DNA of 34,704 bases from Planctomycetia bacterium. Lineage in GTDB: Bacteria > Planctomycetota > Planctomycetia > Pirellulales > JALHLM01. The notes beneath the pieces are model-generated. The model did not search any database. It saw nothing but the letters and a program-made list of their open reading frames with translations, and was not told the origin of the DNA. The stretch is taken from positions 1 through 34,704 of the forward strand of contig JAWXBP010000332.1 in the NCBI GenBank assembly GCA_034440135.1. Reading direction: 5' to 3'. The position numbers were made by a program, and so were the translations under genes. Below, in pieces: positions 2,046 through 20,425 of this stretch; positions within the stretch are counted from its first letter, which is position 1; the number at the start of each line of letters is the position of its first letter.

Positions 2046-3922
<1,877 letters not shown>

Positions 3923-3958
3923 GTGCGCGACCTCCGAAGCTCAATGTGCTTGGCGCAT

Positions 3959-4005
3959 GTCACGGTTCGCCGCCTGGAGACGCCCACCATCCCAGGAACC
4001 GTGAC
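3959..4005 (-). promoter_or_regulatory. Stem-loop in the amtB leader region
   Basis: A perfect 10-bp inverted repeat, GTCACGGTTC (3959-3968) and GAACCGTGAC (3996-4005), encloses a second short pairing CTGG/CCAG. On the minus strand it lies 36-83 bases upstream of the amtB ATG and would form a strong hairpin if transcribed. No U-run follows it and I see no sigma-54 promoter consensus nearby. It could be a leader regulatory element, a protein-binding palindrome or a terminator for the upstream gene. Only one copy occurs in the window, unlike the repeat families elsewhere. Confidence 0.4.
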
Positions 4006-4145
4006 CCAACTGTCCGCCGCCTCTCGGACGTGGGACGTCGCGACAGATTCTCGGCGCGACGAAACAGCTTGGAAGGCCATAACCTAGCCGCCCCCCGAAA
4101 GGCCGTAAAGCCCCAAGGCGTCCGTTTCCCGCGTCGAGGTCGCGG

Positions 4146-7100
4146 CTAACGGAATTCTCGGCGCCGCCGCGGTTTCTCTCCCTCGAAAGTCGGCGACGTG
4201 TTCCACATACCGAACACAGCGTCATGAGCCGCGCCCAACGTGAAACGCGTGGCCGACAAGGCAGTCGTGGGAGTATCCGGCGTCCTGGCAACGGCCATCG
4301 GCGCCGACACGCCGAAATGGTTGCGCACCGCGTTCAGGTCGCTCACATCGACATCGCCGTCGTGGTCCGCATCACCCAGGCCGCCGCTGTCACGGCCGAA
4401 TTGCGTTCGCACCGCCAGCAGATCTTCGATATCCACATCGTTGTCGCCGTCCGCGTCGCCCAATTGTTGGACTACGTCTTCGCGTCCCGGCGATCCGCCA
4501 TGCAAGCGACTCGCGCGCCAACCCTGTTTCAGGCCCCAATTCGCGAGCTCCGTGTGTGTGTCTTGGATGACCAAGGTTTCACCGTCCCCATCCGTACTTC
4601 GGAACCAAGCATCGGAGTACGCGAAGTTGTGGATAATCGCGTCGTCCGTGTCGCGCACGATGATCCCCTCGCCGCTATTGCTCAACTGCCCGGAGTACAT
4701 GCCGGCCACCGGCAACGCATCGCCGTAGCGCTCGCGAAACGCCGCTTCGTTGGCCACGATCAACACGTGCGCGCCCGGCGCCAATTCACGAATCGCGCCG
4801 TGCGTGAAATGAAATTCGACCCCCTGATCGAACCACACGCCCGTCAGATCCAGCGGCGCGTCGCCGATGTTCGTCAACTCCACGAATTCGTAGTCGTTGC
4901 CGTCGAAGGGACTTCCGGCCGCCGGATCGTAGGGATGGTAGTTGATTTCGGTGATGCGTAAGTACTTCTGCGCGTCGGATGGCTCGCCTTCGTAGACGAA
5001 CCCGGCGACTTCACGGCCACTGGCATCGACGATCCGGATCGAACCGCCGCTGCCGGGCAAGACGCCCGTGTAGCCGTCTTGCACGAACAGCACTTGATTG
5101 CCACGGGGGCCGACGTCGCGGGCGCGGAATGCTTTCGCGTCGGGCGTCACGTACAAGTCGCCGCTCGACGGCAGCACCGTGCCGGCCTTGAACGTGTGCT
5201 GAACGGTTCCTTCGATGCGCCAGCCAGAGATGTCGATCGTGCCGCGCGTCGGGTTGTGAATCTTGATGAACTGCTGATCGCGATTACCCGACGCGGGCGA
5301 ATGCTCGACTTGGGCGATCTCCAGACTTTGGATCGCCGCCTGCGCCACGGGAATCGGCCCCCGGCCATTCGACTGCAGGTTGAACAAATAGTTCCGCCGC
5401 TCGGCGAGATACTGCTCGCGGAGAATCGTCAATTGCTGTTCCCAAGTCGGCGAAGCGCCCCACACGCTCCAGCGATTGTTGTCGAGCGCCGCGTCGGCGC
5501 CGATATGTTCCACCAGTGCGTCGATGCGACTCTCGTAATGCCGCTCCTCCTCCGGCGTGTCCGGGCTCTGGAGCAACTCGTCCATCAACGTCCGCAGGCG
5601 GCGCAGGTACATCTGATTGAAACGCGGATCGGCGAACAGCGCGTCGTTCAATAGATTCCCGCGGCCGATGTACAACGGGTTTTGCGAGTACAGCCCGTCG
5701 TCAAAGTAATTGAACGTTGTCGTCCAATTGCGGCCAAACGACAGGTCCAGGTCCCACGGCAGATAAGTCCATTCGCCGTTGCCGAGCGTATCGCGGTAGG
5801 CGTAGTAGTTCTTGTGGCAGCAATCGATGCTGCCGGTGATGACCATGGCCGCCAAGAAATTGGCCATGCTAGCCACGTCCACGTTGTCCCAGAGGAATTG
5901 CGACAACGCCGCGCCGGATTGCCGCAGGCCGGCTTGGAACGCCGCCAGATCGCCGACGCCCTCCTCCTGTCGCGTTTTCTTTTCCGCTTCGCTCGTCGAA
6001 TTGAACGAGTTGTACATCTTGTACAGCGCGCCAAAAGGATCGAGTCCGTTCCGATCCAGGTAGTCGTCGTCGCCGTCTTCCACCAGGTCGTACACGCCCA
6101 GGAAGCGGCCGTTCTGTTGAACGCGCACCGGAAACGCGAAATGCGTCACCGAGCCGGCGTCGCCGTACGTTTCGTAGGCCAGCGTATTGCGCAGCTTCGT
6201 TTTGTCGGCGTAATTCGACAGCAGGTTGAAGTCTTTGACGTTGTAGTCGCTCGACTCGAACGGTTCGAACCGATGGTCGCGCGGGAAATCAACGTTGAAA
6301 CTCTTCTTCGGAAACCCGCGCGACGACTGCCCGTGGATATTGAAGTGCACATTGTCGTAGTAAGCGCCGTTGTAGTACACGCCGCCGCGCGTGCCGACAT
6401 CGCTCTCGGCTCCCGCCAGGCTGGGCAGATGGATGTACATCACCGGCAGGTTGCTGGTCACCGTGGGATCGGCGATCAACAGTCCGTAATTCTGCTCGCG
6501 ATCCAAAGGATCGACCGCGCGCGGCCAGGCTGTCGCCGTGCCAGCGGTATCCACAACCGTGATGCTATAGCGGATCAGCTCGCCGGTCGGCGCCGTGCCA
6601 GCCGCGATGACCGTTCCATAAATCCCGTCGCCCGCCGCACCGTCGCCATGCGCTCCGTCATCGAACATCGGCTGCGTGAACGTCTTCGTTTGTCGCCCTG
6701 AGCCTGTGCGGCCGGTCAGCTTGACTTCCGTCACCGCCAGCGCGCCGAGGATCACGTTCGCGGTGACCGTGATCGGCTCGTCGACCGTCGGCTCGTGCGG
6801 CGAATTCGCGACGTCGATCAGAATCGGTCCCACGTCGGCCGCGCCCGGCCCGTTCGGAGCGCCCGGCGTCGGCGTCGTGAAATAATGGGCCGCGCCATCG
6901 TCGATGGCGCCGGCCCGTTGCGCGATCAATTCCGGGTAGATCAAAAAGTCGTCGCTCGTGGCGCCGAAGTTCAAGCCGTGGATCGCGAGGACGTTTTCGC
7001 CTTGACGCAGTAAATGAGCGTACTGCTGGAGATCGAAATCCTCGGTCACGAGCGCCAATGCATCCGCGCGATCCTCGAACGCGCCGGATTGCCACGTCAA

Positions 7101-7904
7101 GCTGGCCGGCACGTTCCGCGCGGCAACCAGCGTGCCATTCAGATACGCCGCGAAGCCGTCGTCGTATTTGAGACGCAAGTTCAGCGTGCTGTAACTTTCG
7201 ACCGCATCCAGTTCGAATGGCAGCCGCAAATAAGCGCTCGTGCCTTGCCCATACATGGTGTCGTTGACGTTCAGGCCGATGTACGGCGTGTAGCTGGCGA
7301 AGCGTTCGTAACCCAGCCCCGCCGCGCCGGCGAGCCAGCCCGAATCATCAAAATCGACTGCGGTCCAGCTCGTGCCAAGTGTTGCCCCGCCATTGGTAGC
7401 GGTGGGCACGAAGGCCTTGCCCGGCGCTCGTTCCGGGAGGAGCGGAATCGACTCAAATTCCTGGGGCCAGCCGTACGAGACGTCGGCGATCTGCGGGGGA
7501 TAACCGGGCGCGAACGCCGAGGCCACAGTACGCCCGTCGGGTTCCACCAGCGCCAGGTAACCGGCGTCGGCCGCCAGCTTGAAGTTCGTATGCAGCGGCA
7601 GCCCCGGCGTGATTTGATCGTTGTTCGATGCGAACAGGACGAAAAACTGTCCCGGTTCGATCGTCACCGCCGGCAGCCGCCACTTGTTCAACTCCCCGGC
7701 GTCGTCGGTCAGATACCAGCCGGACAGGTTCGCCGTCGCGTCGCCGGCATTGAACAGCTCAATCCAATCCTCGCGATGCCCCGTCTCGTCACGGAGACTG
7801 ATCTCGTTGTCCGCCAGGAACTCGCTGATCACCACTCGGGCATCGAGCAATTGCCGAGCTTCCAACGCCTCGAACCGCGCCTTCGACCGCCGCCTCGCAC
7901 GCAT
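4146..7904 (-). CDS. Large secreted CotH/lamin-tail/dockerin protein
   Basis: A 1252-residue multidomain protein predicted to be exported. The N-terminus (MRARRRSKARFEALEARQLLDA) matches the LEPR-XLL-like start common on planctomycete surface proteins. In order: lamin-tail domain (about 24-127), a beta-rich region (about 177-327), an Ig-like stretch (about 362-460), a CotH domain (about 487-775) with QSSRGFPKKSF, DKTKLRN and YLPWDLDLSFGR, a second lamin-tail-like domain (about 857-972), a third (about 982-1107), and two dockerin/EF-hand-like repeats (DADGDNDVD and DADHDGDVD, about 1148-1199). CotH is a kinase-fold domain; in Bacillus CotH phosphorylates coat proteins, so an extracellular kinase-like role is possible but unproven. 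The ATG at 7904 was chosen because it begins the LEPR-like motif. The frame also stays open upstream to a TTG at 8018, which would overlap gltX. A 12-base G run sits just before the ATG. Confidence 0.85.
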   Translation of the reverse strand: MRARRRSKARFEALEARQLLDARVVISEFLADNEISLRDETGHREDWIELFNAGDATANLSGWYLTDDAGELNKWRLPAVTIEPGQFFVLFASNNDQITPGLPLHTNFKLAADAGYLALVEPDGRTVASAFAPGYPPQIADVSYGWPQEFESIPLLPERAPGKAFVPTATNGGATLGTSWTAVDFDDSGWLAGAAGLGYERFASYTPYIGLNVNDTMYGQGTSAYLRLPFELDAVESYSTLNLRLKYDDGFAAYLNGTLVAARNVPASLTWQSGAFEDRADALALVTEDFDLQQYAHLLRQGENVLAIHGLNFGATSDDFLIYPELIAQRAGAIDDGAAHYFTTPTPGAPNGPGAADVGPILIDVANSPHEPTVDEPITVTANVILGALAVTEVKLTGRTGSGRQTKTFTQPMFDDGAHGDGAAGDGIYGTVIAAGTAPTGELIRYSITVVDTAGTATAWPRAVDPLDREQNYGLLIADPTVTSNLPVMYIHLPSLAGAESDVGTRGGVYYNGAYYDNVHFNIHGQSSRGFPKKSFNVDFPRDHRFEPFESSDYNVKDFNLLSNYADKTKLRNTLAYETYGDAGSVTHFAFPVRVQQNGRFLGVYDLVEDGDDDYLDRNGLDPFGALYKMYNSFNSTSEAEKKTRQEEGVGDLAAFQAGLRQSGAALSQFLWDNVDVASMANFLAAMVITGSIDCCHKNYYAYRDTLGNGEWTYLPWDLDLSFGRNWTTTFNYFDDGLYSQNPLYIGRGNLLNDALFADPRFNQMYLRRLRTLMDELLQSPDTPEEERHYESRIDALVEHIGADAALDNNRWSVWGASPTWEQQLTILREQYLAERRNYLFNLQSNGRGPIPVAQAAIQSLEIAQVEHSPASGNRDQQFIKIHNPTRGTIDISGWRIEGTVQHTFKAGTVLPSSGDLYVTPDAKAFRARDVGPRGNQVLFVQDGYTGVLPGSGGSIRIVDASGREVAGFVYEGEPSDAQKYLRITEINYHPYDPAAGSPFDGNDYEFVELTNIGDAPLDLTGVWFDQGVEFHFTHGAIRELAPGAHVLIVANEAAFRERYGDALPVAGMYSGQLSNSGEGIIVRDTDDAIIHNFAYSDAWFRSTDGDGETLVIQDTHTELANWGLKQGWRASRLHGGSPGREDVVQQLGDADGDNDVDIEDLLAVRTQFGRDSGGLGDADHDGDVDVSDLNAVRNHFGVSAPMAVARTPDTPTTALSATRFTLGAAHDAVFGMWNTSPTFEGEKPRRRREFR

Positions 7905-7909
7905 GAACG

Positions 7910-7921
7910 CCCCCCCCCCCC
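7910..7921. repeat. Twelve-base C/G homopolymer upstream of the CotH gene start
   Basis: Twelve consecutive C on the plus strand, i.e. twelve G on the coding strand, end 5 bases before the ATG at 7904. The tract covers where a ribosome site would be. Such tracts slip easily in replication and are also a common place for sequencing errors. If translation began further upstream in the open frame, each one-base change would shift the frame. Confidence 0.85.
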
Positions 7922-7995
7922 GGGATCCCGCACCGATCGGCGCGGCTGGATCATAGGATAGTGGGGGACAGAGCGGGTGCCAAGGGAAAAGAGGG

Positions 7996-9555
7996 TTAGT
8001 ATCGGACGGCGCGCTCAATTCGCGCTAACGCTCGTTCACGTCCCAAAATCGCCAGAATATCGAACAACCCAAAGCCGACCGCTTTACCGGTCAGCCCGAT
8101 CCGCAGCGCATGCACGATCTGATTCGCCGCGATGTTCTCCTTGGCGATAAAATCGTGCAGCGTCTTTTCCAGCACCTCGGCGTTGAACGGCTCGACGTCC
8201 TTCAACGAATCGCGAAAACCTGCGAGCAGCGTTTTCGCTTCCGGAGCTTGACGAATGCGCTTGTCGAAGGCCGCCTCGTCGTAGGTCAATTGGTCGTCAG
8301 CGGTGAAGAAATCGGCGTAGTCGAGGATATCGCCCGCGGTCTTGATGCGATCGCCGGCCGCGGTGACGATTTGCAGCAGCACGGGGCCGATCGTGCAGGG
8401 GGGCGGTTCCGTCGCCAATCTCGCCCGTTGCAGGTACGGCAACACCATCGCCACTTTTTGCTTCGGCGGCAGTTGTTGCATGTAGCGCTCCTGCACTGAC
8501 ATCAACTTCTTCGGATCAAAGCTCGCCGGCGCCTTGTTCACGCGCTCCAGCGAAAAATGCTCGATCATCTCCTGCCGCGTGAAGTTTTCCGTCTTGTCGT
8601 CGAGCGACCAGCCCAACAGCACCAGGTAGTTGATAATCGCATCCGGCAGGTAACCGACTTGCTCGTAGAAATCGACGATCACCGGGTTGAACGTCTCCGC
8701 GGCGACTTCCAGGTGCATGGCCTCGGCAATCTTCCGGCCGTGCTCGTTGACCTGGGCGAAATCCTTGTTCTTCAGATACTTGTCCAGCTTCCGCTTACTG
8801 AGCTTGTTCTTGCTGCCCGGTTCGGCCACAAACGGGAGATGGGCATACTCGGGGCGCGGATAGCCGAGCGATTCCAGAATGAACACCTGGCGCGGCGTAT
8901 TGGAGAGATGCTCCTCGGCGCGGATCACGTGCGAAATCTGAAAGTCATAGTCGTCGACCACGTTCGCCAGATGGTAGAGACACGTGCCATCCGCGCGTTG
9001 GATTACATGATCCTGTTCGTTGGCCCACTCGAACTCCACCTGCCCGCGAATGTGATCCTGCAACACGAGCTTCCCCTCGCGCGGCATTTTCAATCGCACG
9101 ACACGGGCGCGTCCTTCCGCCTCGAAGCGCGCGGCATCCGCATCCGTCTCCGCCATCCAACGGCGGCTGTAAACGAAGGTCACCTTGGCTTTCTCGGCCG
9201 CTTCGCGCTCTGCTTGCAGTTCTTCGGTCTTGGCGTAATCGCGATACGCGTGCCCGGACGCCAACAGTTTTCGCACCGCCTCCTGATACTGCGTAAGCCG
9301 CTGCGATTGGAAATACCCGTTCGGCGTCCCCGTCGAGTCCGGCCCTTCATCCCAGTCGATGCCCAGCCACGACAAGCCATGCAAAATCGGCGCGAGCGCA
9401 CTCTCGACATTCCGTCCAGCGTCGGTGTCGTCGATCCGCAGAATAAACTGCCCGCCATGCTTCCGCGCGAACAGCCAGTTAAACAGCGCGGTGCGCACCC
9501 CGCCAATATGCAAATACCCAGTCGGGCTGGGAGCAAAACGAGTGCGAACAGTCAT
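7996..9555 (-). CDS. gltX: Glutamyl-tRNA synthetase
   Basis: This cytoplasmic class I aminoacyl-tRNA synthetase charges tRNA-Glu and, in many bacteria, tRNA-Gln for later amidation. The 519 residues start [19 protein letters not shown], giving the HIGH motif as HIGG at 16-19. The second ATP-binding motif is KLSKR at 251-255, and length fits the family. The residues after KLSKR ([11 protein letters not shown]) are more basic than in standard GluRS, where an acidic DGA usually follows. The ATG at 9555 was chosen because it begins the family N-terminus. The frame remains open a further 100 codons upstream, but that extension runs through an inverted repeat and is not believable. It is followed after 91 bp by the CotH gene on the same strand. 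Confidence 0.96.
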
Positions 9556-9635
9556 GGAGCCGCCAACGGAAGTTGCCGAAATCGAATGCCCGTAATCTAG
9601 TCGTTCACGGTCGTCTCCGGGAGGAGGACGGATTC

Positions 9636-9897
9636 GCCCGCGAAACACGCGAAAGGACGCGAAAGCTAGGAAGGGAGAAAGAGGATCTGTCCACGGAATA
9701 CACGGAAAGACACGGAAGGGAAGAGTGAATTCAAGGACCAGTGCGCATCGAATTCTCGTGCCAATCCAACTTGATCGACCAATCCCAACATTTCGAAATT
9801 CGCCGACACACTCACTCCTCCCATTTCCGTGTACTTCCGTGTATTCCGTGGACAACTCTCCCTCCCCACTTTCGCGTGTTCAGCGTGTTTCGCGGGC
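9636..9897. repeat. Long imperfect inverted repeat (type E) in the gltX upstream gap
   Basis: The 431-bp gap 9556-9986 holds no gene. Its left arm (9636-9720) contains GCCCGCGAAACACGCGAAAG and CCACGGAATACACGGAAAG. The right arm (about 9826-9897) carries their reverse complements, ending CGCGTGTTTCGCGGGC. About 105 bp of unrelated sequence separates the arms. The gap lies between two divergently transcribed genes, so the element must sit next to or between their promoters. Similar short phrases are common between genes in planctomycetes and verrucomicrobia, as I recall; only one copy of this type is here, with a looser relative at 28485-28684. Confidence 0.75.
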
Positions 9898-9986
9898 AAA
9901 TTCCTGCGGAGTAGCCAAGGCCGCCCTCGCGCGTCAGAATACAGGCACACGCGCCTTACAAACTCATCAGGCGGAGGGCCCAGGCG

Positions 9987-11509
9987 ATGCGTTCTCAAGC
10001 TTCACGGCGAAATTTCCTGCAATCCGCGGCAGCGGCCGGGCTGGCCGGGTCGTTTCTCGATACTCCCTGGAACGGCCTCTTGCGCCGCGTCAGCGCCGAG
10101 GAAGCCGCGCCGCAGCCAGGCGCCGTCAAGCTCCGGCCGGAGATCGAGCCGCTCGTCAAACTACTGGAAGACACGCCGCGCGAGCGCGTGCTGGAAGAAG
10201 TGGCGGCGCGGATTCGCGGCGGACTCAACTATCAGGACCTGCTCGCCGCGCTGTTGCTGGCTGGCGTGCGGAACATTCAGCCGCGCCCGGTCGGCTTCAA
10301 GTTCCACGCCGTCTTGGTGGTGAACTCCGCGCACCTGGCCAGCATCGCCTCGCCGGACGAACATCGCTGGTTGCCGATCCTCTGGGCCGTCGAAGAATTC
10401 AAGAACTCGCAGCAGCAAGACACGCGCGAAGGCAACTGGACGATGTCGGCGCTCGACGAGAAGTTCGTCCCGAGCGGCGACAAAGCCCTTGGCGCGTTCA
10501 AGACGGCGATGGACCGCTGGGATCCCGAGGCGGTCGATCCCGCGGTGGCCGGCCTGGCTCGTTCGGCCGGCGCGAACGAGATGTTCGAAATCTTCTGCCG
10601 CTATGGCGCGCGGGATTTCCGCGACATCGGCCACAAGGCGATCTACGTCGCCAACAGTTGGCGGACGCTTCGCACGGTCGGCTGGCAACACGCGGAACCG
10701 GTGCTGCGTTCGCTGGCGTACGCGCTCACCCACTACGGCGATGAGAACCCGGCCGACAGCGATCAGGAAGCGGATCGCCCCTGGCGGCGAAACACCAAGC
10801 TCGCGGCTGACATTCGCCCCGACTGGCAAGTCGGTCGCATCGACGACGGCGCCACGCGCGAACTCCTCTCCGGCATGCGCGACGGCAATTGGGGGAAACG
10901 TCGTGCGACACCGCGCTCGCGCAACTCAACGCTGGCGTCGATCCGCAATCGCTCTGGGACGCCATCCACAGTAGCGCCGGCGAACTCCTGATGAACCAGC
11001 CCGGCATCGTGGCCCTGCACGCCGTGACGACCGCCAACGCCCTCCGCTTCGCCTTCACGGAAAGCGGCGACGACGAAACGCGCCGCATGCTCCTCCTGCA
11101 AGCGGCTGCGTTCACCCCCATGTTCCACGCCAACGCCCGGGGGCGCGGCGATGTCGGCGGCACAAAGCTCGACGAACTCGCCGGCACGAGCCCGGGCCAG
11201 GACAGCGCGGCCGTCGAAGCGATCATGCACTCCATCAGCGACAACCGCACGCAAGCCTGCGAGCAACTCCACGGCTACCTCGCGTCCGGCGGCGCCACGC
11301 AACCGCTGATCGACGCGGCCCGACTGCTGGTCTTCTTCAAAGGCACGAATTCGCACGACTACAAATTCAGCAGCGCCGCCTTCGAAGACTACGCGCTGTT
11401 GTCGCCGGGTTGGCGCGAACGGTATCTGGCGACGAGCGTCTTCAACCTCCGCGGAGCGGGGGACCAGGACAACGGGCTGTCGGAACGTGTGCGGGCGGCG
11501 CTTGCATAG
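9987..11509 (+). pseudogene. Tat-signal protein of unknown function, split by a frameshift
   Basis: I do not recognise the family. The protein starts MRSQASRRNFLQSAAAAGLAG, a twin-arginine export signal (SRRNFLQ), so it should be folded in the cytoplasm and then exported. The ATG at 9987 has GGAGG about 9 bases upstream. Frame 9987-10991 encodes about 303 family-like residues, then turns into Arg/Ser-rich text after the G run at 10891-10895 and stops. The frame that starts within 10889-11509 continues smoothly (GETSCDTALAQLNAGVDPQSLWDAIHSS) to a stop at 11509. One extra G in that run would join them into one protein of about 507 residues. This is either a real inactivating mutation or a homopolymer reading error. 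The base pattern does not match a standard minus-one slippery heptamer. Neighbours give no hint of role. Confidence 0.75.
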
Positions 11510-11526
11510 TACGTACTTCTTCTGTA

Positions 11527-11547
11527 GCCGAGGTCTGTGACCTCGGC
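11527..11547. repeat. Perfect hairpin after the Tat-signal gene
   Basis: GCCGAGGTC (11527-11535) and GACCTCGGC (11539-11547) pair perfectly with a three-base loop, 17 bases after the stop at 11509. No T-run follows, so a classical intrinsic terminator is not shown, although it is placed like one. Only one copy is present in the window. Confidence 0.6.
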
Positions 11548-11588
11548 CGGGTTGGACGAAGGATTCTCAACAACGGTGTGACTCGAAA

Positions 11589-11639
11589 ATGGAGACCTTC
11601 GGTCGGGACGGTGGCACGGTCGGGAGACCGTGCCACAAC
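11589..11639 (-). repeat. Palindromic repeat type B, copy 1
   Basis: This 51-bp element is a perfect palindrome (arms GTGGCACGGT and ACCGTGCCAC) plus a tail containing GGAGACCTTCGGTCGGGAC. Copies 2 (12308-12358) and 3 (25492-25542) have the opposite orientation. The two variable arm bases differ between copies but always stay paired. It lies 24 bp before the TPR gene start and, with copy 2, brackets that gene as an inverted pair. Confidence 0.85.
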
Positions 11640-11663
11640 GAGCGGACATCGCCGGAGCGACTG

Positions 11664-12299
11664 ATGGATTTTGAAACACTGCAATTGCTGCGAAAGGATG
11701 CTTGGTCAGCCTACAATGCTGGTCGACTCCCGTCCGTTGTCGAATTGCTCGATGCGTACTTGAAGCGACGCACCGATGACGGGTTCATGTGGTTTCTCTA
11801 CGGAGATAGCCTGCGGATTATGGGAATGATGTCCGCCGCTCGGGACGCGCTGCGGACCGCCCTTAGGCATGCGCCCCGAAGGCGACGATATCGGGTACAG
11901 GGGACTTTAGGGAAACTATACTCGGAATGGGGAAAACGCGCACTTGCAGAAAAGTATTACTCGCGCGCGACGCAAGCGAGAAATGGCGGATCGGAGCTTG
12001 CCTGGATTTGGCAATTGCGAGGCGTGAATCTTGCGAAGATGGAGGAATTTCACGGGAGTTGCACTTGTCTCAAATTCGCGACGGAACTGGACAATGAAGA
12101 TCCAGACGTGTTTCACTCGCTTGGGGCCGTTCTGTGCGCACTCAAGCAATACGCAGATTCAATTGTTGCGCTAGATCGAGCGATCGCGTTACGTGGCGGT
12201 GACTTTCCCGCCGCATTGAAATTACGAAACAGCATGGCTGGAATCGCAGAGGTGATTGATCGCATTGCTACGATTGAGTATGGCAACGGTTCAAGCTGA
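11664..12299 (+). CDS. Small TPR-repeat protein
   Basis: A 211-residue protein made mostly of helix-turn-helix repeats like tetratricopeptide repeats, for example AWSAYNAGRLPSVVELLDAYLKRR, LGKLYSEWGKRALAEKYYSRATQA and LGAVLCALKQYADSIVALDRAIAL. TPR arrays bind other proteins; no partner or catalytic domain is visible, and there is no signal peptide or membrane segment. The ATG at 11664 has GGAG 7 bases upstream. An ATG further upstream at 11589 in the same frame lies inside repeat type B and is not used. Two sampled 60-base lines have about 53-55% G+C, against about 72% in a sampled line of the next gene, which suggests a different origin. Inverted copies of repeat B sit on both sides. Confidence 0.75.
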   Translation: MDFETLQLLRKDAWSAYNAGRLPSVVELLDAYLKRRTDDGFMWFLYGDSLRIMGMMSAARDALRTALRHAPRRRRYRVQGTLGKLYSEWGKRALAEKYYSRATQARNGGSELAWIWQLRGVNLAKMEEFHGSCTCLKFATELDNEDPDVFHSLGAVLCALKQYADSIVALDRAIALRGGDFPAALKLRNSMAGIAEVIDRIATIEYGNGSS

Positions 12300-12307
12300 T
12301 CCCGCTT

Positions 12308-12358
12308 GTTGTAGCACGGTCTCCCGACCGTGCTACCGGCCCGACCGTAGGTCTCCAC
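12308..12358 (+). repeat. Palindromic repeat type B, copy 2
   Basis: Arms GTAGCACGGT and ACCGTGCTAC form a perfect palindrome, followed by the shared tail CGGCCCGACCGTAGGTCTCC. It begins 9 bp after the TPR gene stop and is inverted relative to copy 1. Compared with copies 1 and 3, both bases at the variable arm position have changed together with their pairing partners. Confidence 0.85.
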
Positions 12359-12471
12359 TTCCTGTCGGCACCACGGCACGGTCGCGAGTTGCCAGTCGCA
12401 TCACTCCTGCCGCCGAACTAAACTAGTGCTGCCGAAACCCCAGCTCCGCACGCTTTTTCCGCAGGTGCTTG

Positions 12472-14199
12472 ATGCGCTTCGTCGTCTGTTTGTCCGCGGC
12501 GATCTGCCTGATGTCCTCGTCTTTTTCGCTCGCACAATCCAATCCCCCCGCCGTCTCCGGCTACGATCGCCCCGGCGCGAATAAGCACAAAAGCCGCTCC
12601 GTCACCATCGCCAAGCATGGCATGGTTGCCACCAGCCAGCCGCTCGCGGTGTTGGCCGGGCTCGACGTCTTGCGCGCCGGCGGAAACGCGGCCGATGCGG
12701 CCATCGCGACCAACGCCATGATGGGCCTCGTCGAGCCCATGAGTTGCGGCATTGGCGGCGATTTGTTCGTCCTCTACTGGGACGCCAAGTCACAGAAACT
12801 CTACGGACTCAACGCCAGCGGGCGCAGTCCTTTCGCGCTCAATCGCGACGTGTTCCGCGAAAAGCAGCTCGCGCAGATTCCCAACGACGGCCCGCTCTCC
12901 TGGTCCGTGCCAGGCTGCGTCTCCGGCTGGGAAACGCTGCACCAACGATTCGGCCGCACTAAATGGGATGCGCTGTTCACGCCCGCGATCCAGCACGCCG
13001 AGGAAGGTTTTCCAGTCACCGAGGTCATCGCCGGCTACTGGGCCGGCGGCACGGCGAGCTTGAAGAAATGGCCCGACAGCGCCGCGACGTATCTGCCGAA
13101 CGGGGCTGCGCTGAAAGAAGGCGAAGTCTTCCGCAACCCACGTCTCGCGGCGAGCTACCGCGCCATTGCGACGGATGGCGCAAAAGCGTTTTACGAGGGT
13201 AGCATCGCCCAGCGCATCGTCCAGTTCAGCGAGGCCAACGGCGGATATTTCTCGCTACGCGACTTCACCGAACACACGAGCGATTGGATCGAGCCGGTCT
13301 CGACAAACTACCGCGGCTACGACGTCTGGCAGCTCCCGCCCAACGGCCAGGGCATCGCCGTGCTGCAAATGCTGAATCTGTTGGAGTCGTATGATCTCAA
13401 ATCGCTGGGCCTCGGCAGCCCGGAGTATCTGCATACCTTTGTCGAAGCCAAGAAGCTCGCCTACGCCGACCGCGCGAAGTTTTACGCCGATCCGGCCTTT
13501 GTCGACGCGCCGATCGCGGAGCTGATCTCCACGCCGTATGCCGACGTGCGCCGCAAACTCATCGATCCTCAACACGCGGCGACGAATGTACCGGCTGGCG
13601 ACCCGAAGTTACGACAGGGAGACACGATTTACCTCACCGTTGTCGACGCCGAACGCAACTGCTGCTCGCTGATTCAAAGCAACTTCAACGGCTTCGGCTC
13701 GAAGGTCGTCCCCGGCGACGTCGGCTTCGCGTTGCAAAACCGCGGGGCGCTCTTCGCGCTCGACGACACGCATCTCAATCGCCTGGAACCGCACAAGCGG
13801 CCGTTCCACACGATCATCCCCGCGATGGTCACCAAAGCTGGAAAACCGTGGTTCTCGTTCGGCGTGATGGGCGGCGACATGCAGCCGCAAGGTCAGGTGC
13901 AGGTGCTCGTCAATATGATCGACTTCGGCCTCGACGTCCAAGCCGCCGGCGACGCCGCGAGAGTGCGCCACGACGGCAGCGCCACGCCGACGGGCCTCCC
14001 AGAGACGCCCCCCGGCGGGACGGTCATCGTCGAATCCGGTATCTCAGACGCGGCGGTGAAAGCCTTGGAAGCAAAAGGCCACCAGGTCAAACGCGGCGAC
14101 CCCGACGGCGGCTATCAAGGCATCCAGATCGACTGGGAAAACGGCGTCCTCCGCGGCGGCAGCGAGCCGCGAAAAGACGGCACGGCGCTGGGGTATTGA
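12472..14199 (+). CDS. ggt: Gamma-glutamyltransferase
   Basis: Gamma-glutamyltransferase cleaves gamma-glutamyl bonds of glutathione and related compounds and transfers the group to water or amino acids. It is usually made as a precursor that cuts itself in two. The 575 residues begin with a signal peptide (MRFVVCLSAAICLMSSSFSLAQ), so it acts outside the cytoplasmic membrane. Family features include GLDVLRAGGNAADAAIA and EPMSCGIGGDLF near the N-terminus. The autocleavage site and nucleophile is Thr385 in GDTIYLTVVD, and FSFGVMGGDMQPQGQ lies near the C-terminus. The TTG immediately upstream is also in frame, but ATG 12472 is preferred; AGGTG lies a few bases before it. Length matches the family. 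Confidence 0.93.
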   Translation: MRFVVCLSAAICLMSSSFSLAQSNPPAVSGYDRPGANKHKSRSVTIAKHGMVATSQPLAVLAGLDVLRAGGNAADAAIATNAMMGLVEPMSCGIGGDLFVLYWDAKSQKLYGLNASGRSPFALNRDVFREKQLAQIPNDGPLSWSVPGCVSGWETLHQRFGRTKWDALFTPAIQHAEEGFPVTEVIAGYWAGGTASLKKWPDSAATYLPNGAALKEGEVFRNPRLAASYRAIATDGAKAFYEGSIAQRIVQFSEANGGYFSLRDFTEHTSDWIEPVSTNYRGYDVWQLPPNGQGIAVLQMLNLLESYDLKSLGLGSPEYLHTFVEAKKLAYADRAKFYADPAFVDAPIAELISTPYADVRRKLIDPQHAATNVPAGDPKLRQGDTIYLTVVDAERNCCSLIQSNFNGFGSKVVPGDVGFALQNRGALFALDDTHLNRLEPHKRPFHTIIPAMVTKAGKPWFSFGVMGGDMQPQGQVQVLVNMIDFGLDVQAAGDAARVRHDGSATPTGLPETPPGGTVIVESGISDAAVKALEAKGHQVKRGDPDGGYQGIQIDWENGVLRGGSEPRKDGTALGY

Positions 14200-14204
14200 G
14201 GAAG

Positions 14205-14413
14205 ATTCGTAGGTCAGGCACCTGTTCGAAGGCACGCGCCCTCGCACCATCAGCAACCAAGGCCACATCCCAAATCGACGCAAGCTAATTGCCTGACAGG
14301 AAAGACCGTCGCAGGCCTGTCAGGCAATTAGCCAGCATGGTCATGGGTTGTTGGGGGAAGTCGTCGCAGTGCGACATGTTGCGCCTTCGACCGGGGTGCC
14401 TGACCTACGGAAT
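14205..14413. repeat. Nested double inverted repeat (type G) between convergent genes
   Basis: The outer arms are at 14205-14233 (containing TAGGTCAGGCACC) and 14383-14413 (containing GGTGCCTGACCTA). Inside them is a perfect 17-bp pair at 14284-14300 (GCTAATTGCCTGACAGG) and 14316-14332. Inner and outer arms share GTCAGGCA. The element fills the gap between the ends of ggt (stop 14199) and the hydrolase gene (stop 14418), where a two-way terminator would be expected. There is no T-run. Confidence 0.8.
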
Positions 14414-14417
14414 TGCG

Positions 14418-15335
14418 CTATTTCTTCCCCAAGTGCTTGTCAAACCAATCCCCCAGCGTCGCCATGTCCTTGAGTAAGTCGGGCCAACCATGCCCAGCGC
14501 CCGGCTTCGTCACCAGTTCCGCTTCGACGCCAGCGCCTTTGAGTTTGTCGATCACCAGTTGCGCTTGTTGAATCGGCACCAGCGTGTCGGCGTCGCCGTG
14601 GATGATCAGCGTGGGGGGATCGTCGGCGGTAACTTGGTAGACCGGCGAGATCGTGTGCGCGAGCTCATCGAGCTTCTGCTCGTCCGTGATCGGCTCGAAC
14701 TCCTGCTTCGCGTCGTCGTAATACTGATAGTCGAACGGTGCGCGAAAGTTCGCCAGCACGCCGCGCCCCATCGCGTTTTCGCCGTCCTTGCCGTAGTTCA
14801 GAAAATCCGTCGGCGGAAAGAAGCAGGCCACCGCCTGCACGCGGCTGCTTGCTTTGTCGACGGCGTCCATCGCGTCGGCGCTCCCCTCGGCGCCGGCCGT
14901 GCCGATCATCAGCGACAAATGCCCGCCCGCCGATGCGCCGGTAATGCCAAAGCGCTCCGGATCGACGCCGTAATCGGCCGCGTGCGTGCGAATGTACCGT
15001 ACCGCGCGATTCATATCGCTGACCGCTTCGAGATTCGTGTACTTCGGCTGGCTGCCATGCACGACGGCAAACACCGTGTAGCCGCGGTTCAAGAATTCCT
15101 GCACGAAGCTCGGGTGAATCGCCGCATGGGCGGAAACCCAGCCGCCGCTGACGCAGAAGATGATGGCCGCGCCGTTCTTGTTTTCCTTCGGCGTGAAGAC
15201 GTCCATCGTCATCGCCAGGCCGTCTTTGCGGCCGTAGATGACGTCTTCTTTTCGCTCAAAATTGTCGGCCTCTTGGGCCGACGCCAGTTGGGCGCCTACG
15301 GCGGCCAACAGCAACGCGACGACTGCTCTTTTCAA
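14418..15335 (-). CDS. Secreted alpha/beta-hydrolase (esterase-like)
   Basis: A 305-residue alpha/beta-hydrolase with a signal peptide (MKRAVVALLLAAVGAQLASAQ). The probable catalytic triad is Ser135 in GASAGG, Asp250 in HGDADTLVP and His282 in GAGHGW. The sequence FCVSGGWVSAH may take the place of the usual HGGGW oxyanion-hole motif. It resembles the BD-FAE and acetylesterase-like hydrolases that act on short-chain esters, but the substrate cannot be read from sequence. The TTG at 15335 is preferred because it begins the signal peptide and has GGGAG about 10 bases upstream. GTG codons at 15338, 15341 and 15353 are in-frame alternatives. It converges on ggt and diverges from the methyltransferase gene. 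Confidence 0.85.
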   Translation of the reverse strand: MKRAVVALLLAAVGAQLASAQEADNFERKEDVIYGRKDGLAMTMDVFTPKENKNGAAIIFCVSGGWVSAHAAIHPSFVQEFLNRGYTVFAVVHGSQPKYTNLEAVSDMNRAVRYIRTHAADYGVDPERFGITGASAGGHLSLMIGTAGAEGSADAMDAVDKASSRVQAVACFFPPTDFLNYGKDGENAMGRGVLANFRAPFDYQYYDDAKQEFEPITDEQKLDELAHTISPVYQVTADDPPTLIIHGDADTLVPIQQAQLVIDKLKGAGVEAELVTKPGAGHGWPDLLKDMATLGDWFDKHLGKK

Positions 15336-15453
15336 CACCACTAGCTCTCCCACAAATAAGCCAACCCCGGGCCGGCGACGGCCAGAAGCAAGCTATAATG
15401 CGCAAGTCGCGGTCGGGACGCAACTACGCGAAGTTGCCGCTGCCGTCGCTCCC

Positions 15454-15518
15454 AAGCCCAGGGAAGGCCCCCGGAATCGTGGGTGATGGAGACGATATCG
15501 AAGGCCTTCCCTGGGCTT
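15454..15518. repeat. Palindromic repeat type A, copy 1
   Basis: Perfect 16-bp arms AAGCCCAGGGAAGGCC (15454-15469) and its complement (15503-15518) enclose a 33-bp loop. Further copies are at 20594-20659 and 31556-31621. This copy lies between two divergent genes, upstream of both, so it cannot be simply a terminator. Confidence 0.9.
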
Positions 15519-15561
15519 ACAGCGGCGAACGGTCGTGGAGCGTTGTCGTAAGGAAACCCAA

Positions 15562-16788
15562 ATGCAATCAATGCCAATTCGACGATGTGCATGGCTCCTT
15601 CTCGCGGCGATCGCCGCCGGCACAGCCGTGTCGCCCGCCCGTGCCCAATCGCGGCAGGCCCTGGAAGAAGCCCGGCGGCGGATGGTGGACGAGGAAATCG
15701 AAGCCGCTGGCGTCAAAAACCCGCGAGTCCTGGACGCCATGCGAAAAACGCCCCGGCACGAGTTCGTCGCCGTGGCAGAGCGAAAGCTGGCCTACTTCGA
15801 TATGGCCATGCCGATCGGCTCCGGCCAGACAATCTCGCCGCCGTTTATCGTGGCTTACATGACGGAACAACTCGATCCCCAGCCGACCGACAAGGTGCTG
15901 GAAATCGGCACCGGCTCCGGCTACCAGGCCGCGGTGCTCAGCCCGATCGTGGCCGAAGTGTATTCGATTGAGATCGTCGAATCGCTCGGGCAAAAGGCCG
16001 CGCGGGCGCTGCGTCGACTCAAGTACGAAAACGTCCACACCAAGATCGGCGACGGCTATCAAGGCTGGGCCGAGCACGCGCCGTTCGACAAGATCATCGT
16101 CACCTGTTCGCCGGAGCAAATCCCCGAGGCCCTTGTCGAGCAACTCAAGGAAGGGGGCCGGATGGTCATTCCACTCGGCGAGCGCTACCAGCAGTCGCTG
16201 TACCTGTACCAGAAGAAGGACGGCAAGATGGTCGAAGAAGCGTTGCGGCCCACGCTCTTCGTTCCCATGACCGGCGCCGCCGAAGACGGCCGCCATATCT
16301 TGCCGAACCCTGCCAAGCCCAGCGTGGCGAACGGCGCCTTCGACGAGTCGCTCAAACAAAAGCCCGACGAGCCGGCCGGCTGGCATTACCTGCGCCAAGC
16401 GGAACTCGTCGACGAGGACGGACAAGGTAAATACCTGCGGTTCGCGAATCAAGTCCCCGGCCGCGGCTGCCAGGCCCTGCAGGCGTTCGCCGTCGACGGC
16501 CGCAAAGTAGCACAGCTTTCCGTGTCACTGCGCGTGCAAGGCAAGGACATCGCCCCCGGCCAAGACGCACGGCAGCTCCCTAGCTTGGCGATCACCTTCT
16601 ACGACGAACGCCGCGCGGTGGTCGCGGAGCGCGGCCTCGGCCCCTGGCGCGGTTCCTTCACCTGGCAACCCGAGTCCGCCAAACTCCAAGTCCCCAAGCA
16701 AGCCCGAGAAGCAATTCTCCGCGTCGGCCTAATGGGCGCGGTAGGCGAGTTGGGCATCGACGACGTAGACGTGAGGGCAAGTGAATAG
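15562..16788 (+). CDS. pcm: Exported protein-L-isoaspartate O-methyltransferase with extra C-terminal domain
   Basis: The enzyme methylates L-isoaspartyl residues in aged proteins using S-adenosylmethionine so they can revert to aspartate. A signal peptide (about residues 1-29, ending SPARAQ) precedes the enzyme domain at about 36-240, which has GSGQTISPP (86-94) and the SAM-binding VLEIGTGSGYQAAVLS (112-127). Residues about 256-408 form an additional domain starting NGAFDESL and containing GWHYL, with alternating beta-like strands, similar to carbohydrate-binding jelly-roll domains. That likeness is by eye only. Standard Pcm is about 210 residues and cytoplasmic, so both ends are unusual, and the source of SAM outside the cytoplasm is unclear. 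The ATG at 15562 has AAGGA 7 bases upstream; a GTG at 15535 is in frame but less likely. Confidence 0.88.
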   Translation: MQSMPIRRCAWLLLAAIAAGTAVSPARAQSRQALEEARRRMVDEEIEAAGVKNPRVLDAMRKTPRHEFVAVAERKLAYFDMAMPIGSGQTISPPFIVAYMTEQLDPQPTDKVLEIGTGSGYQAAVLSPIVAEVYSIEIVESLGQKAARALRRLKYENVHTKIGDGYQGWAEHAPFDKIIVTCSPEQIPEALVEQLKEGGRMVIPLGERYQQSLYLYQKKDGKMVEEALRPTLFVPMTGAAEDGRHILPNPAKPSVANGAFDESLKQKPDEPAGWHYLRQAELVDEDGQGKYLRFANQVPGRGCQALQAFAVDGRKVAQLSVSLRVQGKDIAPGQDARQLPSLAITFYDERRAVVAERGLGPWRGSFTWQPESAKLQVPKQAREAILRVGLMGAVGELGIDDVDVRASE

Positions 16789-16939: not shown

Positions 16940-19900
16940 CTATTCCTCTTCCCCCGGCGGCGACTTAATCCCCAGCTCTCGGTTCATCTCCGAGATCACG
17001 TTGGCGTCGCGGATCAGCTCTTGCATCAACTGCGGGAAAGGCAGCGACCCGAACGCTACGGCGCGTTGGATGATATACGGCACCGGGCTGTGCGGTTCCA
17101 TGCGTTGCAGCGCGGTGGCGGCGTCGTGGAGTTGCTTGTAAAGGTCGTCGCGCGTGACGGCCCGTGAGGCGGACCGCATCACCACGGTCTGGCCGCCGGC
17201 GCCATCGTCGACCGTTTCTTCAACGTCGGCCGCTGATTCGTCGCCCCCTTTGCGGGCGACGATCTGCTTGGCGAGCGTAGCCCCTTCCTCGATCGATCCG
17301 CGGACATAGCTTAAGCCCGGCGCTTCGTTGGCCATCTTCGCACGGAGCTCGTTGACGAGTTGCTTCAACTCCGTCAGCGCCTGCGCCGAGTCGTCCGCCA
17401 GTCGCCGGCATTGTTCCGGCGTGGAGTTGAAAACCGCCTTTTCAACGATCTCGTTGGCCAGGCCTTCTTTTCCTTCGCGCGCCAACTGAAAATGCAATGC
17501 GCCGTAACGCTCACCGCCGACGACGACGACCGGCAGGCTGCGAATCGTGTTGGGAAACACCGCGCCACGATCCGTGTCGTCAAGCCAATTAAACGGCGCG
17601 GCGCGGACTTCCAAGTCGTCGTCTTCGTCGAGCGCCGGCTCCAGGCGGTTCCAGCAGCATTCGACGAGTTGCCGGAACAGATGCAATCCATCGCGCAGGC
17701 CAGCGAAGCCATGGACGCGGGCGAGCGCCTCGGTCAATCGCGCGGCGATCAGCAGGTTCTTCGACTTCTCCGTCAACGTCTGCTGGCAGAGCCGGATCAC
17801 GCCTTGCCAATCGGCGCGGACGGGCTCCGCGGGACGGAGCGGATCGTCCTCGGCGAAATCCGAGGGATTAATCTCCTTGCGCATCTCGTCGAGCTTTTGA
17901 CGCACGTCGAAGGGCACCGAGTCCCCGGCCGGCTCGTCTTCCGAGATCGGCTGCACGAGCGCCAGGAAATCAAGAATCGCCGGCGAGGCCGCTTTGGATT
18001 CACCGTATTTGGTGCTGGCCTTGGTGGCCTCGACCATGGCGGACAAGTCTTGCGTGTCCATAGCTGCGCCCTGATTCGCCGAATCGTCGGCAGCGGTTTC
18101 CGTTTCGTCGCTCACATCACTTGCCATCTTGGTCTCCTCGGCGTTCGCGTCGCCGCCCGCGTCGAGTTCGGCCAACATCGCGTCCAAGTCGATTTCTGCT
18201 TCCGCGTCTTCGGTCGGCTCTGCGTCGTCGTCGCCCAAGCTGGCGAGCATGGCGTCGAGATCGAGGTCTGCTGCCGCTTCGTCGGTTGTGTCAGGGGCTG
18301 CTTCGTCCTTCGCTTGCTCCGCGTCGTCGTCGCCCAAACCAGCCAGCATGGCGTCGAGGTCAATGTCGTCGTCAGTTGACGTTTCAGACTCGCTCGAAGT
18401 TGCGTCGTCGGACGAGGAAGGCACGTTATCGTCGTCCGAACTGTCGCTGTCCGAGTCGTCTGAACCACCGAGACCCGCTAAGAGGGCGTCGAGGTCTGCG
18501 TCGCCGGAACTGGACGGCGCGTCGTCGCTGGAATCGTCGTTGCTCGCCGAGCTTCCTTCATCATCCCCGGCCAACAGTGCCGCGAGATCGTCGTCCGCTG
18601 AACTGGTTTCGCCAGCGTCGGACTTTACTTCGTCTGATTCAGACACGTCGTCGTCTCCCAAACTGGCGAGCATGGCGTCAAGGTCGATGTCGTCAGCGGC
18701 CGATGCCGAATCTTCACTCGCAGCGTCGCTGGAAGTGCCTTCATCGCTCGAAGTCTCTTCGTCGTCGCCGAGCGAAGCCATCAGCGCATCGAGGTCCAGA
18801 TCGTCGCTGTCGTCGCTCGAAGCGCTTTCGTTCGAGTCGGAGGAGTCGTCCGAGGGATCGCTATTATCACTGCCGGAGTCGTCATCCGCGGCGGGGCTCA
18901 CGTCGTCGTCCGAGTCCGAACTCGAATCATCGTCGGAACTCGTATCATCATCGTCGCTTGACGAATTGTCGTCATCGTCGCCGGCCGCCAACAGCGACGC
19001 CAGGTCGTCGTCCACTTCCGGATCGTTCGACCTCACGGTCGTCGATTTCGGCGCCGGGCCGCCCTTGAGTTTCACGGTATCGGACTTCGCTTCGGTCGGC
19101 GAGGCGAAGCTGACTTTCCCGCCGCCGGTCCAGAGGCCCGCCAGCAGCGGTTGCTCCGCGGACAGCGATCGAATCGCCGCCAACTCGACGAGGTCGCGCC
19201 CCTTGAACGACAACGCCGGGATCAGGCCCAACTTGGCCAATTCCGTGCCGACGGCCGAAGTGAAACGCACTTCGGTGATGACACCGACGTCCTCGTCATG
19301 CTCGTCCCGATAAGCATGGACCGGCATGCTATCCAGCACGCGCTTCGCGGCCGGATTCATCTTCCAGCCCGACTCCATAAAGCCCAGCGCCAACAACGTC
19401 GCGCAGGCGACGGCGCTATTGCCCCAGAGATACCCCTCCGGGCGGCCGTCGAATTCCTCAAACGGAATCGAATCGGGCGGGCGATAGTTGTCGCCAAACG
19501 GCGGACGCAACAGAAATCCCGGCGTCGCGAGCGCAACGTAGCTCGCTTCCGGCAAGGCGCGCAATGCTTTCCATGCCGCCGTGAGTTCGTCCGGCAGCTC
19601 GTAACTATCGAGCCGCGTGACGTCGCTTTCCATTCCCGCCAGGAACGGTCCGCCGGCATACGTGGCGATCTTCGCCAGGCGTCCCACGAGCGCGGCGTCT
19701 TCTTCGCTAAGCCCGAAGGAATACAATCCGACGATCATCCCCCAAGGGATGCCGTCAGGCGCCTGCGCCGACTTGTTCACCAGCAGATCGAAGATCGCCG
19801 TTTGTGCGAGGTCGTCCTGGGCCGCGAGGTCGCTCCGCAGTTCCTCGGCGGTCACGTCGAACAGCAGCACCTGCACGCGGCGATCTTTCGACACCCGCCG

Positions 19901-20425
19901 CAACAGCAACGCCAGACCTCGCCACGCACTTTCCAGCAATTGATACGCCGAATGCCTAAGCAATTCGCGCATCTGCAGCGCGGCCGGCGAATTCACTCGG
20001 TCGTCGCGCGAGTCTTCCAGTTTGTTGAAGACGTCAGCGCTTTTATAAATCGGATCCGGGTGGAAATCGTCCAGCTCCCGGAACTCCAACTCGATTTCAT
20101 CGCCCCCGGAGGTGGAAAACGCCAGTTTGGGGCCGATCTCCTCGATCAGCTCGTCCAGGTCGTCGAATGCGGCCTTGCGACCGCGGAGCGATTTCAGCTC
20201 GTCCGCGCTGCGGGGTTCCTCGCGACCGCTCCGGCCGGAAAAGTCTCCCCACACGGCAATGCGCAGCGGCGTTTCGTCCGTCGCCGCATAGTCGGGGCGC
20301 GGGGATTCAAGCTGGCCGAAGTTCGGGGTGTCGGACACGGAGTCGGGGCCCTTGCTGTTCCGTAGCGTGGCGAGGGAGGAGCAGGCCGGGCGCCGCGCCC
20401 TGGCGCGCACCGGCGAACGGCGCAT
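16940..20425 (-). CDS. Type VI secretion fusion protein: TssB-like, TssC-like, acidic linker, TssA (ImpA)
   Basis: Up to 1161 residues. Residues 53-140 resemble TssB (LRIAVWGDFSGR; ELEFRELDDFHPD), the small contractile-sheath subunit. Residues 150-430 resemble TssC, the large sheath subunit (LESAWRGLALLLRRV; LATPGFLLRPPFG; GYLWGNSAVA). Residues 465-815 are an Asp/Ser-rich linker with eight spaced motifs such as DIDLDAMLASLGDDD. Residues 815-960 match the ImpA N-terminal domain of TssA (QPISEDEPAGDSV; RLTEALARVHGFAGLRDGL), and 1085-1150 match the TssA C-terminus (EPHSPVPYIIQRAV). In known systems these are separate proteins: TssB and TssC build the sheath, and TssA starts and caps it. No other type VI gene is nearby. 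The start is uncertain: ATG 20425 is the longest, but GTG 20338 (VSDTPNFG) would remove an atypical Arg-rich lead. Region assignments are by motif recognition. Confidence 0.82.
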   Translation of the reverse strand: MRRSPVRARARRPACSSLATLRNSKGPDSVSDTPNFGQLESPRPDYAATDETPLRIAVWGDFSGRSGREEPRSADELKSLRGRKAAFDDLDELIEEIGPKLAFSTSGGDEIELEFRELDDFHPDPIYKSADVFNKLEDSRDDRVNSPAALQMRELLRHSAYQLLESAWRGLALLLRRVSKDRRVQVLLFDVTAEELRSDLAAQDDLAQTAIFDLLVNKSAQAPDGIPWGMIVGLYSFGLSEEDAALVGRLAKIATYAGGPFLAGMESDVTRLDSYELPDELTAAWKALRALPEASYVALATPGFLLRPPFGDNYRPPDSIPFEEFDGRPEGYLWGNSAVACATLLALGFMESGWKMNPAAKRVLDSMPVHAYRDEHDEDVGVITEVRFTSAVGTELAKLGLIPALSFKGRDLVELAAIRSLSAEQPLLAGLWTGGGKVSFASPTEAKSDTVKLKGGPAPKSTTVRSNDPEVDDDLASLLAAGDDDDNSSSDDDDTSSDDDSSSDSDDDVSPAADDDSGSDNSDPSDDSSDSNESASSDDSDDLDLDALMASLGDDEETSSDEGTSSDAASEDSASAADDIDLDAMLASLGDDDVSESDEVKSDAGETSSADDDLAALLAGDDEGSSASNDDSSDDAPSSSGDADLDALLAGLGGSDDSDSDSSDDDNVPSSSDDATSSESETSTDDDIDLDAMLAGLGDDDAEQAKDEAAPDTTDEAAADLDLDAMLASLGDDDAEPTEDAEAEIDLDAMLAELDAGGDANAEETKMASDVSDETETAADDSANQGAAMDTQDLSAMVEATKASTKYGESKAASPAILDFLALVQPISEDEPAGDSVPFDVRQKLDEMRKEINPSDFAEDDPLRPAEPVRADWQGVIRLCQQTLTEKSKNLLIAARLTEALARVHGFAGLRDGLHLFRQLVECCWNRLEPALDEDDDLEVRAAPFNWLDDTDRGAVFPNTIRSLPVVVVGGERYGALHFQLAREGKEGLANEIVEKAVFNSTPEQCRRLADDSAQALTELKQLVNELRAKMANEAPGLSYVRGSIEEGATLAKQIVARKGGDESAADVEETVDDGAGGQTVVMRSASRAVTRDDLYKQLHDAATALQRMEPHSPVPYIIQRAVAFGSLPFPQLMQELIRDANVISEMNRELGIKSPPGEEE

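Follow-up and report, generated by a model that had tools for sequence, protein, structure and literature searches.

The stretch of DNA analysed here, called hereafter the window, covers 34,704 nt of contig JAWXBP010000332.1 from a Planctomycetia bacterium of the order Pirellulales. On its minus strand, a single open frame of 1161 codons (nt 16940–20425) joins parts related to the sheath proteins TssB and TssC of the type VI secretion system (T6SS) to the assembly factor TssA. An earlier note, made from the letters alone, had proposed that these parts follow each other in this order in one frame, and this was borne out by Pfam matches above the curated cut-offs and by the same chain in five genomes. 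The T6SS_VipA match covers residues 47–165 (E = 7e-8), the VipB N-domain match residues 150–420 (E = 3e-45) and the ImpA_N match (PF06812) residues 825–949 (E = 6e-27, 94.5 bits for a cut-off of 26.9). The NCBIfam model of TssA, TIGR03363, was matched by residues 819–1152 over positions 2–353 of its 353 (188.2 bits, cut-off 160.85). Scores for the equivalog models of TssC and TssB stayed far under the cut-offs (TIGR03355, 145.7 versus 271.5; TIGR03358, 28.5 versus 97.25), and neither Pfam nor NCBIfam revealed an effector domain in the protein. Translation probably starts at a GTG codon, residue 30 of the frame, because homologues begin at an M-x-x-x-SFG motif. Positions of the features are given in Table 1.

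Table 1. Features of the fused gene in the window.
Feature	Position (nt)	Strand	Evidence and remarks
Fused gene (TssB core, TssC N-domain, acidic linker, TssA)	16940–20338	−	Start most likely GTG 20338; frame open up to ATG 20425
N-terminal segment with family motif (N/S)FGxL, at the position of the TssB beta-1 arm	20288–20338	−	Alignments; VipA profile match from position 21 of 155
TssB/VipA-like core, PF05591 (T6SS_VipA)	19931–20287	−	Pfam, 32.8 bits for a cut-off of 24
TssC/VipB N-domain, PF05943; sheath protomer core lacking the N-terminal (ClpV helix) segment of TssC and the C-terminal handshake domain	19166–19978	−	Pfam; structure comparison
Acidic low-complexity linker, ~370 residues	17990–19105	−	Composition and motif count
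TssA Nt1 (ImpA_N) domain	17579–17953	−	Pfam; phmmer match to 6hs5
TssA C-terminal ring domain, EPHSPVPY motif	16961–17146	−	Match to 6h8f (C-terminal domain of TssA1-B, PMC6232143), E = 4e-5

The T6SS sheath is knitted together by a handshake, in which strands beta-11 and beta-12 of TssC take up beta-13 of TssC and beta-1 of TssB from neighbouring subunits, and the target of ClpV is an N-terminal helix of TssC (PMC5807055). The handshake region is spanned by the gpW/gp25-like C-terminal domain of TssC, PF18945. This domain was matched by the canonical TssC proteins of all five genomes that encode the fusion, and by the fused gene in none of them. Its absence among the members of our alignment A3 comes partly from trimming, and the conclusion rests on untrimmed checks. 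The TssC part announced by the earlier note is therefore present as the VipB N-domain only. At the other end, the VipA profile match opens past the arm region, and in the alignment the window form misses the N-terminal TssC segment with the ClpV helix; many unfused relatives retain an LLDxxL-like helix.

We use the name TssBC' for the single-chain architecture made of a TssB core and a TssC N-domain. An AlphaFold2 model of this part (residues 30–437, with 76 homologues in the alignment) reached a predicted local distance difference test score (pLDDT) of 91.5 and a predicted template modelling score (pTM) of 0.93. It matched TssC chains with Z scores of 25–30 and the single-chain sheaths of pyocins, extracellular contractile injection systems (eCIS) and phages with Z about 16, over both halves (model residues 20–408). 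For a long form typical of the family, that of Ca. Brocadia pituitae, the structural match stopped at residue 397–399 of about 495 against TssC, and at residue 289 of about 385 against the R2 pyocin sheath. In these model comparisons, the TssBC' alignments to both sheaths end where the handshake starts, and 71 of 80 open reading frames (ORFs) of the family terminate at most 12 residues past the core. Profile matches and alignments indicate that residues 30–440 are a TssB-TssC core in one chain, which keeps the sheath fold and has no handshake domain, and that the TssBC' part is not a working sheath subunit.

The fused protein thus shares with TssB/TssC (VipA/VipB) the fold of the heterodimer core (PF05591 and PF05943), but it is one chain, it lacks PF18945 and, in the window, the ClpV-helix segment of TssC, and it scores below the equivalog cut-offs. 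With the single-chain sheaths of R-pyocins, eCIS and phages it has in common the co-linear TssB-like and TssC-like parts in one polypeptide. Those sheaths, however, keep the C-terminal handshake part, whereas the TssBC' family stops where that part starts, and TssBC', unlike them, is encoded among T6SS genes.

A survey of 57 relatives, then of 396 genomes of the order, revealed the one-frame fusion in five Pirellulales genomes, belonging to four genera and three families. Most genomes of this analysis are metagenome-assembled (MAGs). The carriers are the window genome, a MAG of the same genus (Pirellulales bacterium Bin_18_1_sub, 89%), G016 (45%), G032 (about 50%) and G006, assembled as a single contig of 6.6 Mb. 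Among 392 genomes drawn from the whole phylum, no additional fusion was seen, apart from the window's own genome. Between the window and its sister of the same genus, the ratio of non-synonymous to synonymous substitution rates (dN/dS) was 0.066 for the TssB-TssC part, 0.19 for the linker and 0.043 for TssA; the fused gene is under strong purifying selection. Trees of both halves group the five fusions together, although with weak support (88/71 and 74/68), so that a single origin of the fusion is only likely.

The linker contains 34% D+E and 2% K+R (over 360 of the ~370 residues) and eight copies of the motif [LIVA][DE]xx[LM]Ax[LMR], where shuffled sequences predict 0.05. Six to nine copies were counted in the linkers of the five fusions, for less than 0.1 expected from shuffles; the expression was derived from these same proteins, yet the motif recurs in linkers that are otherwise unalignable. 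The acidic tails of unfused planctomycete TssBC' proteins hold repeats such as EEMDPELAALMADLD (loci L153, L154, L155, L161, L157 and L034). These repeats, shared by tails and linkers, argue that the linker is a planctomycete TssBC' tail behind which TssA was appended. Genomes of the Gemmataceae and Isosphaeraceae types (L044, L045, L157 and L160) encode TssBC' separately from a closely related TssA, within the same cluster.

Two further observations concern these regions. The short motif MDPELAALLADL is repeated in tandem, up to about eight times, between nt 17990 and 19105 of the window and in the tails of the same six loci, and looks like a putative multivalent docking motif. A scan with the linker expression over the ORFs of the examined loci found repeated copies in the fused proteins only, and the idea that other T6SS genes share it as a general docking motif was rejected; the expression is too narrow for most unfused tails. 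In addition, a conserved protein of 213 aa matching no Pfam family is encoded between tssB and tssA in the Gemmatales/Isosphaerales-type clusters (L044/L045; nt 3182–3823 of L045).

As judged from its domains, the TssA half is complete, with Nt1 and a ring-forming C-terminal domain (CTD). It resembles the TssA1 clade (short TssA, TIGR03363, with B. cenocepacia TssA1-B and P. aeruginosa TssA1), its Nt1 and CTD matching 6hs5 and 6h8f. In known TssA proteins ImpA_N lies at the N-terminus, whereas in the fusion it is preceded by a sheath-like core of 410 residues and an acidic, motif-bearing linker of about 370. In three of the five genomes (G006, G016 and G032), all with tssB/tssC clusters and with one handshake TssC each, the fusion is the sole ImpA_N protein, and must therefore serve as TssA. 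The fused gene of G006 heads the series tssB-tssC-hcp(x3)-impE-tssE-tssF-tssG, followed by clpV, tssK, tssL and tssM.

In the window, the neighbours of the fused gene are asnS, trxB, a two-component pair, PCMT and others, none of them T6SS genes, and a search with Pfam and NCBIfam profiles found no further tss gene there, as the earlier note had stated. Two T6SS clusters with normal tssB/tssC are present elsewhere in the genome, on contigs C398 and C497. The C497 cluster has its own tssA; that of C398 has none, and is of the same type as the G006 cluster (TssC scores of 834–1134, versus 557–594 for the other type). The C398 system is therefore the one that the fused protein probably serves. 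Given these T6SS genes and the otherwise normal cluster of G006, the suggestion that the gene is an orphan, or belongs to a divergent contractile system, is not supported. In the C497 system (L006, nt 3707–6942), TssC is encoded twice, by tandem paralogues of 500 and 565 aa, and the cluster includes a gene of sigma-70 type. Two small ORFs that the window lacks lie between the fused gene and asnS in the sister species (L008, nt 4835–5436); by eye they look like a RelE/ParE toxin-antitoxin pair.

TssBC' is not confined to the fusion. A scan of GTDB with one peptide pattern returned 273 relatives, and the 80 kept span Acidobacteriota, Desulfobacterota, Planctomycetota, Gemmatimonadota, Nitrospirota, Myxococcota and Pseudomonadota. 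All 76 aligned members match PF05591 and PF05943, in that order in a single chain, and neither Pfam nor NCBIfam has a dedicated family for them. Like the fusion, they consist of a TssB core and a TssC N-domain, and planctomycete tails share the DPELAALL-type repeats of the linker; unlike it, they are not joined to TssA, and most retain a TssB/TssC junction of ~100 residues, often with an LLDxxL helix resembling the TssC N-terminus. Within the class, TssBC' goes together with a T6SS: a canonical handshake TssC was found in 43 of the 44 carrier genomes (the exception is 86% complete), whereas the TssBC' profile was matched, canonical TssC counted in, in only 149 of 397 class genomes. At loci such as L062, L066, L053 and L088, the gene stands within the T6SS operon, in the order hcp-tssE-tssF-tssG-clpV-TssBC', followed at several of them by vgrG; ordinary sheath genes are present too. 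Searches of open-licence literature for a natural TssB-TssC fusion yielded nothing but tag fusions and unrelated ones, an absence that is not proof; the passages of Boyer 2009 and of a sheath-evolution survey that match fusion terms do not mention one. TssBC' is a widespread and apparently undescribed T6SS accessory protein.

Some members have particular surroundings. An FHA-domain protein with DUF6931, possibly a T6SS regulator, recurs beside vgrG and TssBC' in planctomycetes (L027, nt 13502–14440; L030, nt 18576–19532; L156, nt 7534–8088). At about 11 loci of Acidobacteriota (for example L097, nt 7935–15760), a lone TssBC' gene, distant from T6SS genes, immediately precedes gidA-parA-parB-tatC in a conserved arrangement. 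Besides the fusion with TssA, a second, unfused TssBC' of the long form is encoded in G016 (C73), G032 (C122) and G006 (C1, nt 5399294–5400859), at loci L035, L036 and L038.

Sheath binding by the Nt1 domain of TssA requires TssB and TssC together, and the ring is built by the CTD (PMC11106082, PMC6232143); the role of Nt1 as sheath-docking domain was established as late as 2024 (PMC11106082). Whether proteins with ImpA_N work where the sheath is initiated or at its distal end depends on their CTD (PMC6745524). We propose, with a probability of roughly one half, that the fusion is a T6SS TssA with a tethered N-terminal mimic of the sheath protomer, which would dock on the sheath end or prime it. 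The CTDs would form the usual TssA ring, from which numerous flexible arms would extend, every one of them carrying an Nt1 domain and a TssBC' head. With the surface of the sheath but neither its interlocks nor the ClpV helix, the head would dock as a pseudo-protomer, on the sheath end or on Nt1, but would not be built into the sheath, since no strand exchange is possible, nor be expected as a target of ClpV extraction, and would never be recycled. Real TssBC would displace the heads. They would thus act as place-holders, which either prime the first ring or hold the TssA ring at the growing end until real TssBC comes.

Against this proposal, the docking role is assigned by analogy with TssA, and many unfused TssBC' genes stand beside vgrG or clpV, or alone in the genome, with no specific pointer to TssA. 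The head might act as distal cap, baseplate primer or autoinhibitor. The vgrG neighbourhoods favour the baseplate side, and a fusion to TssA is compatible with both ends.

Among the alternatives, an inhibition in cis is unlikely. The head would be a pseudosubstrate filling the groove through which the Nt1 domains of its own ring bind the sheath, and would keep TssA inactive until it is pushed out by the baseplate or by real TssBC. Recognition by Nt1 requires both members of the TssBC pair (PMC11106082), and TssBC' offers both halves in one chain that cannot lock into the sheath, on a linker long and flexible enough for a contact in cis; however, unfused TssBC' is widespread and not tied to TssA, so that cis inhibition is not the general role of the family. 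We give a similarly low credence to a sheath initiator on the baseplate side, whereby TssBC' would form or template the first ring by TssE/VgrG, the fusion bringing along an initiation factor of the TssA1 type. Unfused genes are frequently placed between clpV and vgrG, the fused gene of G016 and unfused genes of G052, G223 and others adjoin vgrG and the FHA-DUF6931 gene, and the class C TssA1 of P. aeruginosa localises to the initiation site (PMC6745524). Yet without handshake strands a normal link to TssE is missing, and many members of the family are distant from vgrG. It is much less probable that TssBC' is an effector or cargo adaptor, loading something via its acidic motif tail onto VgrG or into the sheath lumen: the nearby vgrG and the repeated short linear motif of tails and linkers would suit it, but a fusion to the assembly factor TssA would be unexpected, and the fused protein has no detected effector domain.

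A true sheath subunit that polymerises into the sheath with TssA attached is very improbable. TssB and TssC profiles and fold do match, but the missing handshake domain, the canonical tssB and tssC in all five fusion genomes and the sub-cut-off equivalog scores speak against it, and a functional sheath fused to TssA is rejected on the absent PF18945. The idea of the earlier note that sheath and cap factor are fixed in a 1:1 ratio is not supported, since the handshake domain is missing and canonical tssB/tssC are encoded elsewhere in every fusion genome. Finally, although TssBC' and TssA do occur as separate genes in relatives, the Gemmatales/Isosphaerales-type genomes, which the earlier note would have taken as a sign of an assembly fusion, an assembly chimera is refuted by the same fusion in five independent assemblies, one of them a single contig, which therefore reflects an evolutionary fusion, and a pseudogene or decaying gene is ruled out by dN/dS far below 1.

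The mechanism by which TssA holds the growing sheath end, and the nature of the last sheath layer, are debated; the cryo-electron microscopy of the V. cholerae distal end fits either TssA or a flat ring of sheath subunits (PMC5813253). A natural TssA tied to a non-interlocking protomer links both models of the distal end in a single testable molecule. By tying TssBC' to TssA, the fusion might reveal its site of action, and a tentative extension is that TssBC' may be a general T6SS part, a non-interlocking protomer forming the end ring of the sheath, as cap or primer; sheaths in several phyla would then have a dedicated terminal subunit, like phage tails. The TssBC' family itself appears to be a T6SS component found over several phyla, for which Pfam and NCBIfam have no separate family.

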